A stretch of 64,000 nucleotides of DNA, from positions 5,029,001-5,093,000 of the forward strand of contig NC_020829.1 in the NCBI RefSeq assembly GCF_000349845.1, written 5' to 3'. The stretch's first letter is position 1. Each line of letters begins with the position of its first letter. The position numbers and the translations under genes were made by a program. This stretch comes from Pseudomonas sp. ATCC 13867 (GTDB lineage: Bacteria > Pseudomonadota > Gammaproteobacteria > Pseudomonadales > Pseudomonadaceae). This document shows positions 59,714 to 63,090 of the stretch, one piece after another. The notes beneath the pieces are model-generated. The model did no database searches. It was not told the DNA's origin and saw only the letters and a program-made list of their open reading frames with translations.

Positions 59714-60904
59714 ATGAGCGAATACTCGATCTTCACCTCTGAATCCGTCTCCGAAGGCCATCCGGACAAGATCGCGGACCAGATTTCCGATGCGGTGCTC
59801 GACGCCATCATCGCCAAGGACAAGTACGCCCGCGTGGCCTGCGAAACCCTGGTGAAGACCGGTGTGGCGATCATCGCCGGCGAAGTCACCACCTCCGCCT
59901 GGGTCGACCTGGAAGAGCTGGTGCGCAAGGTCATCATCGACATCGGCTACAACAGCTCCGAAGTCGGCTTCGACGGCGCCACCTGCGGCGTGCTGAACAT
60001 CATCGGCAAGCAGTCGGTGGACATCAACCAGGGCGTCGACCGCGCCAAGCCGGAAGACCAGGGCGCCGGCGACCAGGGCCTGATGTTCGGCTACGCCAGC
60101 AACGAAACCGACGTGCTGATGCCCGCGCCGATCTGCTTCTCCCACCGGCTGGTGGAGCGCCAGGCCGAAGCCCGCAAGTCCGGCCTGCTGCCGTGGCTGC
60201 GCCCGGATGCGAAATCCCAGGTCACCTGCCGCTACGAAGGCGGCAAGGTCGTCGGCATCGACGCCATCGTCCTGTCCACCCAGCACAACCCGGAGGTCAG
60301 CTACAAGGACCTGCGCGAAGGCGTGATGGAGCTGATCATCAAGCACGTGCTGCCGGCCGAGCTGCTGCACAAGGACACCCAGTTCCACATCAACCCGACC
60401 GGCAACTTCGTGATCGGCGGCCCGGTGGGCGACTGCGGCCTGACCGGCCGCAAGATCATCGTCGACTCCTACGGCGGCATGGCCCGTCACGGCGGCGGCG
60501 CGTTCTCCGGCAAGGACCCGTCCAAGGTCGACCGTTCCGCTGCCTACGCCGGTCGCTACGTGGCCAAGAACATCGTTGCCGCCGGCCTGGCCGAGCGTTG
60601 CGAGATCCAGGTGTCCTACGCCATCGGCGTGGCCCAGCCGACCTCCATCTCGGTCAACACCTTCGGTACCGGCAAGATCAGCGACGAGAAGATCGTCCAG
60701 CTGGTCCGCGAGCACTTCGACCTGCGTCCGTACGCGATCACCACGATGCTTGACCTGCTGCACCCGATGTACCAGCCGACCGCGGCCTACGGCCACTTCG
60801 GTCGCAACCCGTTCGAAATGACCTACGGCGAGGACACCTTCACCGCCTTCACCTGGGAGCGCACCGACAAGGCCGCCGCCCTGCGTGACGCCGCCGGCCT
60901 GTAA
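59714..60904 (+). CDS. metK: S-adenosylmethionine synthetase
   Basis: The 396-residue enzyme makes SAM from methionine and ATP. Signatures: [32 protein letters not shown] and [25 protein letters not shown] stands before the ATG. In operon with sahR. Its native terminator was split by an inserted element (60938-61144), and transcripts should now end at the hairpin inside the element. Confidence 0.98.
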
Positions 60905-60926
60905 GGTCCGGTAGCAGGAAAAGTCC

Positions 60927-60937
60927 CGCCTCGGCGG
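60927..60937 (+). repeat. Target-site duplication, left copy
   Basis: CGCCTCGGCGG, identical to 61145-61155. The two copies flank the 207-bp element exactly. Confidence 0.85.
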
Positions 60938-60957
60938 TAATGCTGTTCACTTAAGAA

Positions 60958-60997
60958 AAACGCCGCGACTCCTTTGCCAGGATCGCGGCGTTTCTTT
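60958..60997 (+). terminator. Terminator carried by the element
   Basis: AAACGCCGCGA (60958-60968) pairs with TCGCGGCGTTT (60983-60993). The loop can itself pair TCCT with AGGA, and TCTTT follows. It would end metK transcripts 60-90 nt after the stop codon. Confidence 0.75.
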
Positions 60998-61067
60998 GCT
61001 CCGCAGGTCGCCTCAAGCGGAGATTTTGAATGGGTTGTTCCCTCTGTGGCTCTGAAAAAGGAACAAA

Positions 61068-61098
61068 AAACCGATACCAGAGCACCTGGTATCGGTTT
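61068..61098. repeat. Second hairpin inside the element
   Basis: AAACCGATACCAG (61068-61080), loop AGCAC, CTGGTATCGGTTT (61086-61098): a 13-bp perfect stem with A/T runs on both sides. Confidence 0.7.
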
Positions 61099-61144
61099 AT
61101 CGGAGCTCGCGATTGTCCACTAAATGCTTAAGTGAACAGCATTA

Positions 61145-61155
61145 CGCCTCGGCGG
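61145..61155 (+). repeat. Target-site duplication, right copy
   Basis: CGCCTCGGCGG, followed by GGCTTTTT, the right half of the original terminator. Joining the left flank (AAAAGTCCCGC) to this side restores an 11-bp stem with a CTCG tetraloop and a T-tract. Confidence 0.85.
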
Positions 61156-61183
61156 GGCTTTTTCGTTTCTGCTGGGAGGCCTA

Positions 61184-63090
<1,907 letters not shown>

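Follow-up and report, generated by a model that had tools for sequence, protein, structure and literature searches.

A miniature element in the loop of the metK terminator of Pseudomonas sp. ATCC 13867 and the terminator-loop targets of its IS4-subgroup relatives

Insertion sequences (IS) are usually portrayed as choosing their targets by a sequence preference or almost at random. Within the IS4 family, IS231A and IS186 prefer GC-rich palindromic targets and generate duplications of about one helix turn; to our knowledge, terminators as such are not their target. The founding IS4 of E. coli shares with the elements described here a transposase of 442-443 aa, a length of about 1.4 kb, TAATGC...TTAAG-type ends, duplications of 11-14 bp and a leader hairpin ending at the start codon. 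It differs in that its terminator-hairpin targets are less strict (6/8 sites) than in the present lineage. IS4 is also said, in a report from 1984, to lie within the pheST attenuator, which would fit terminator targeting. IS1272 and TnSha1, which belong to the IS1182 family, enter hairpins, several of them confirmed terminators, without a sequence consensus (PMC4923244). Besides their family, they differ from the elements at hand in leaving a partial stem deletion and no target duplication (PMC4923244). Copies of ISRm22, of the IS4Sa subgroup of the IS4 family, are found in palindromic REP units (PMC1525189), although for ISRm22 and other REP-targeting elements the target is one repeat family rather than terminators at large. 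Class C (group IIC) introns choose intrinsic terminators (PMC3522654), but are introns and insert downstream of the terminator rather than in its loop (PMC3522654). Apparent specificity in the target arms of subgroup IS4 was noted in 2008 (PMC2266710), in a paper whose main text uses the word 'terminator' 0 times. Terminator targeting by IS4 elements is likewise not described in the accessible parts of PMC10969869, PMC6382973 and PMC2267715. Searches of the open-licence literature yielded no account of IS4 elements that target terminators at the loop.

The window analysed here is a stretch of 64,000 nucleotides from the 5.70 Mb single-contig genome of Pseudomonas sp. ATCC 13867, and the element of interest lies directly downstream of metK (59714-60904, plus strand; stop codon 60902-60904; TIGR01034, 603.5 bits). 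The initial annotation had proposed an IS4-like miniature element (MITE) inserted into the loop of the metK terminator, and each structural part of that proposal is borne out. The 207-bp element (60938-61144, with no strand assigned) is bounded by perfect 18-bp terminal inverted repeats, TAATGCTGTTCACTTAAG reading on the plus strand at 60938-60955 and on the minus strand at 61127-61144 with no mismatch; with up to 3 mismatches allowed, this end occurs at 2 sites in the window against 0.01 expected in shuffles. It is flanked by an exact 11-bp duplication, CGCCTCGGCGG, at 60927-60937 and 61145-61155 on the plus strand. Outside the duplication lie the two halves of the split metK terminator, AAAAGTCC at 60919-60926 and GGCTTTTT at 61156-61163, both on the plus strand, and when these flanks are rejoined with one copy of the duplication the terminator stem given in the initial annotation, of 11 pairs, 1 of them G-U, is restored. 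In the fold the rejoined terminator has 13 pairs, 2 of them G-U, around a CTCG loop, and including the outer stem it comprises 57 bases at -31.8 kcal/mol; the duplication is centred on its loop. Duplications of the present elements are intact and of 10-14 bp, which sets them apart from the IS1272 type with its partial stem deletion and missing duplication. No transposase gene is present, as the largest open reading frame wholly inside the element encodes 49 aa, and an RNA family search of 60600-61500 gave no match up to E 1. With its length of 207 bp, inverted ends shared with a resident IS to within one mismatch, a target duplication and 4 copies in the genome, the element at metK is a non-autonomous MITE.

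The site at metK is empty in all the congeners examined. In 24 of 24 other species the 18-bp end is absent within 400 bp 3' of metK, as the initial annotation had anticipated for a mobile element, and the exact 11-bp target sequence is present downstream of metK in 13 of these 24 congeners. The best hairpin downstream of metK is followed by a T run of at least 3 in 22/24, the exceptions being G009 and G021. In G009 (L166) the metK terminator is degenerate, and the sequence behind it contains GTTCACGGTAAG as well as a strong hairpin; an examination of this terminator for another element found no second, partner end. A fixed, non-mobile structure at metK is given next to no credence, as nothing speaks in its favour and it is contradicted by this absence from 24 congeners, by the target duplications and by the 98-100% identity of the four MITE copies. 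In most congeners the sole matches to the MITE are stretches of about 40 bp over its first hairpin (see below), 80-88% identical (for example L042, L047 and L051), as if this hairpin resembled a host terminator.

A genome-wide search for the same ends, suggested by the initial annotation, recovered 3 further copies of the 207-bp MITE; the terminal ends of 2 MITE copies differ by 1 base. It also recovered the full-length partner that had been predicted, in the form of four 1422-bp elements whose 18-bp ends agree to within one mismatch and all of which encode the same 443-aa transposase. This protein matches PF13006 (100.9 bits), PF01609 (82.9 bits) and NF033592 (257.9 bits against a cut-off of 115), and thus contains IS4 transposase domains. 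Its identity to the E. coli IS4 transposase is 35%, and when the two proteins are aligned the Y(2)R(3)E(6)K signature is seen in it as YQERWEIELGFRDIK. This signature is the one given for subgroup IS4 of the IS4 family in the 2008 paper (PMC2266710). Duplications of 11-13 bp, about one helix turn, occur at 8/8 sites in this genome. By its sequence the partner transposase belongs to the IS4 family, subgroup IS4, and is a predicted DDE enzyme of the cut-and-paste kind; no solved structure related to it by sequence was found up to E 10. Over its right 80 bp the MITE shares 77% identity with the transposase-proximal end of the IS, and from shared ends and targets it is most likely that the MITE is mobilised in trans by this resident transposase. 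A ninth candidate copy (L067, genome 5214957-5215189) is doubtful, as each end has 3 mismatches and a reversed control pattern also gave 2 matches. Its two ends lie 233 bp apart, no terminator was seen there by eye, and it may be a decayed copy or chance.

Each of the eight copies in this genome, MITE and IS alike, splits the loop of a hairpin that has an A- or T-tract, so that the other copies, too, sit in terminator loops and the sites are not random. Gene ends were identified beside 5/8 copies, namely metK, phnX, rpmG, a bepA-like gene (with nadA convergent) and icd, where bepA, nadA and icd score below the NCBI cut-offs and nadA and icd are cut off by the end of the locus. Relatives were collected from a genome scan (77 loci), plasmids, E. 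coli and viral contigs, together with a PF13006 sample of 398 Pseudomonadota genomes (match in 19) and a sample of 298 family genomes searched by end pattern (match in 39). E. coli IS4 was read at 12 loci, K-12 and 11 among the matches listed (11 of 2739 matching records), and plasmid copies at 9 loci among the matches listed, of 668 matching records. In the PF13006 sample, 13/30 loci of the first batch gave ends and duplication, 10 of them from other genomes, and 9 of these 10 had a hairpin score of at least 10; in the second batch ends and duplication were found at 20/20 loci and a hairpin at 19.

The rule for calling a terminator went through two forms. The first, which accepted duplications with one mismatch, called 29/33 sites at 0.30% background and missed L012, a copy in this genome with its tracts within the stem. 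The revised rule, in which A or T runs lie within 14 nt of the duplication, called 29/33 at 0.13% with runs of 4 and 32/33 at 0.43% with runs of 3; it was set after viewing these first 33 sites and before the later sets. For the final set, listed ends with up to 3 mismatches had to carry AATG and the duplication had to be exact and at least 9 bp. This filter dropped one copy of this genome (L015), which was re-added by hand. A further 27 copies lacking an exact duplication were kept apart; in some of these an old duplication now carries one mismatch, and a left A run of 3 together with a right T run of 3 occurs in 20 of the 27, a count without a control. Merging overlapping sets by target sequence left 87 exact-duplication sites, or 88 with L015.

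Of the 88 distinct sites, 83 have a hairpin that scores at least 10 and whose axis falls no more than 2.5 nt from that of the duplication; an A or T run of 3 accompanies it at 81/88 and a run of 4 at 78/88. At 72,050 control positions, all drawn from the loci of the first 33 sites, the corresponding frequencies are 4.4% for a hairpin and 0.13% for a hairpin with a run of 4. For the first 33 sites, 29 of which have hairpin and run, the binomial p is 4e-80, which serves as an indication only given the shared history of sites within genomes. Hairpin and run of 4 are found together at 7/7 sites in this genome (8 with L015), at 4/4 copies from the G-numbered genomes, 18/21 of the genome scan, 21/22 of the PF13006 sample, 7/9 MITEs and 7/7 IS of the family sample, 6/8 plasmid sites, 1/1 viral contig and, less strictly, 6/8 distinct sites of E. 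coli IS4, whose hairpin sites include those 3' of mdh, bamD and glgP. Four misses are long stems without a run of 4 (L077, L104 and L285 with runs of 3, L081 with a run of 2), and a fifth, the plasmid copy L212, has a short stem with runs of 2. The sites without a score-10 hairpin are the K-12 IS4 site, yhjB-treF, the plasmid copy L213, L273 and L308. On the viral contig (L199, from IMG/VR) a terminator is occupied by a 206-bp element that has the same ends, and such elements may accordingly travel with phages. Copies of this transposase lineage thus lie at the loops of predicted terminator palindromes, mostly with the cut 3 nt inside a tract on each side (A-tract 51/82, T-tract 53/82), and their duplications, of 10-14 bp, are centred on the hairpin axis. 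The suggestion that the element uses hairpins as landing sites is supported, with the refinement that the preference belongs to the transposase lineage and not to this MITE alone.

Any set of surviving copies is shaped by selection against harmful insertions, and such a pattern might in principle arise if insertion were wide and only intergenic insertions, where terminators lie, persisted. Selection of this kind is generally expected, annotated genes beside copies never overlap them, and the gene ends found beside five of our eight copies are in keeping with it. What this account predicts, however, is intergenic scatter, against tract-bearing and centred hairpins at 78/88 sites; the 0.13% of positions that qualify would rise to only about 1% of intergenic sequence on the estimate that a tenth of the genome is intergenic. 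It also leaves unexplained the excess of symmetric terminators described next, and we regard it as very unlikely.

The manner in which the target is read is reflected in its symmetry. The hairpin axis lies within 0.5 nt of the duplication axis at 78/82 hairpin sites, where the search range of 2.5 nt spans 11 positions of which 3 satisfy this agreement by chance. Tracts on both sides are found at 58/63 targets against 37/99 other predicted terminators in the same loci (p = 9e-13). The 63 leave aside the sites from E. coli and from plasmids and any site with a score under 12 or a run shorter than 4; the 99 are predictions, among them the two MITE hairpins of the window and probably a number of intragenic ones. 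Target stems are also stronger than those of the background terminators, with a median of 18 against 16 (p = 3e-4). Duplication length correlates with the distance between the tracts (rho 0.59), a relation partly built in as the distance contains the duplication. The parity of duplication and loop length matches in 62/83 (p = 7.5e-6; 1 in 20,000 permutations).

Another reading would be that the transposase recognises a sequence motif, AAAAGCC...GGCTTTT, which is common in terminators, and that the inner palindrome is irrelevant; terminator targeting itself is common to this reading and to the palindrome reading that we favour. GC and CG pairs indeed predominate from position -3 to position 0, A/T tracts are common, and both the left and the right target arm have been described as showing apparent specificity (PMC2266710). 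Yet most stem positions hold several different base-pair types in 58 sites which, having been picked for their hairpin, are informative in this variety only. Arms of a different sequence also occur at some E. coli IS4 targets and at some in the three-genome set. Moreover, a target arm pairs better with its own partner than with those of other sites (9.06 against 6.94 of 10; 33 sites, 0/10,000 permutations), and the parity of the duplication follows the loop. We consider recognition of such a motif rather unlikely.

Insertion might alternatively be guided by the termination event itself, through a paused RNA polymerase, a nascent RNA hairpin or an R-loop, rather than by DNA. In its favour, three housekeeping genes, metK, rpmG and icd, are among those whose terminators are hit in this genome. 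The enrichment of two-fold symmetry is needless for a one-directional process, however, and a crude ORF-based count of 42 copies revealed no orientation bias (into the 5' end 11, into the 3' end 10, both 14, neither 7). Guidance by termination is improbable in our estimation, and the symmetry data point to a DNA palindrome as what is read over termination as such. Since the targets are symmetric and the parity follows the hairpin, the transposase, as a symmetric complex, probably recognises a two-fold symmetric DNA palindrome, either as duplex or as cruciform.

The elements also carry hairpins of their own. In the MITE at metK, the hairpin seen by the initial annotation near the left end starts directly inside the terminal repeat (about 60956-60997, strand unassigned), has both an A- and a T-tract, and folds at -23.8 kcal/mol (60953-60999); it is the predicted new terminator of metK. 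A second, terminator-like hairpin, absent from the initial annotation, spans 61068-61098, about 46 bp from the right end; its T tail is on the minus strand, and it is the counterpart of the leader terminator of the IS. A consensus scan of 60850-61250 identified 2 terminator-like sites against 0.7 expected in shuffles, namely this second hairpin (minus strand) and a short junction hairpin at 61146-61158 (plus strand); it did not flag the first hairpin. With a hairpin near each end, the MITE should terminate transcription from either side, and it is plausible that it restores the termination predicted to have been lost at metK. A diverged 207-bp sibling MITE is present in G011 in three copies (L038, L059 and L304), all in terminators. 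By eye, its second hairpin is kept through paired base changes, while the first is nearly unchanged and so is not kept by compensatory change.

In the full-length IS, 21 aligned leaders place a terminator-like hairpin with its T-tract directly 5' of the assigned start codon of the transposase. Across these leaders 90.8% of cells are paired and changes on both sides occur in 42 cells against 11.6 in shuffles; counted by pairs the covariation is weaker, 8 against 5.9, a value reached in 14/500 shuffles. A promoter-like site with its predicted start within the 5' arm of the leader hairpin is present in 26/27 leaders. The match is weak, at 8-9 of 12, and 17.7% of mononucleotide shuffles score as high; what supports the promoter is its constant position, in leaders that are themselves mutually related. 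The design of this leader resembles the protection from impinging transcription known for IS10 and IS50.

Our results suggest a model for how these elements enter and then replace a terminator. The transposase complex would read two half-sites, arranged as A-tract, GC arm, loop, GC arm and T-tract, in duplex DNA or an extruded cruciform. Transcripts of the host gene entering the IS would fold the whole leader hairpin and stop, so that the host unit would still be terminated and the transposase gene insulated. Transcripts from the element's own promoter would lack most of the 5' arm of the hairpin, and the transposase gene would be read. The balanced orientations of the IS speak against the model to some degree, since a terminator at one end only might favour the direction in which it would serve the upstream gene. 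We consider it likely that this explanation holds in full, with a mobilised MITE, a palindrome-reading transposase and a leader terminator bypassed by its own promoter.

Traces of exchange between copies are also present. Two IS copies in G576 (L317 and L321) have reciprocally exchanged terminator halves, and in P. indica the left half at L108 matches the right half at L100. Such half exchanges would mark rearrangements between distant sites, as expected for recombination between copies. A broader account, to which we lend somewhat more than even confidence, is that homing to the loops of symmetric intrinsic terminators goes far back in the IS4 subgroup and is tied to a leader terminator inside which the element's own promoter starts. 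The element would in this way both repair termination and exclude host transcription from its transposase gene, MITEs would spread as mobile terminators on the same rule, and recombination between copies would swap terminator halves between genes.

Terminator targeting would explain the conserved target arms recorded in 2008 and predicts where such elements go, and the defined palindromic target offers a means to study how a transposase reads symmetry. The tolerance of insertions just behind genes such as metK, rpmG and icd would also have a simple explanation. Terminator loops appear to serve a widespread lineage of predicted DDE transposases, the founding IS4 less markedly so, as near-neutral landing sites, and its elements appear to bring a terminator along. 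As nearly all relatives examined land alike and carry hairpins of their own, mobile DNA may in this way be able to enter a genome and leave its host unharmed.
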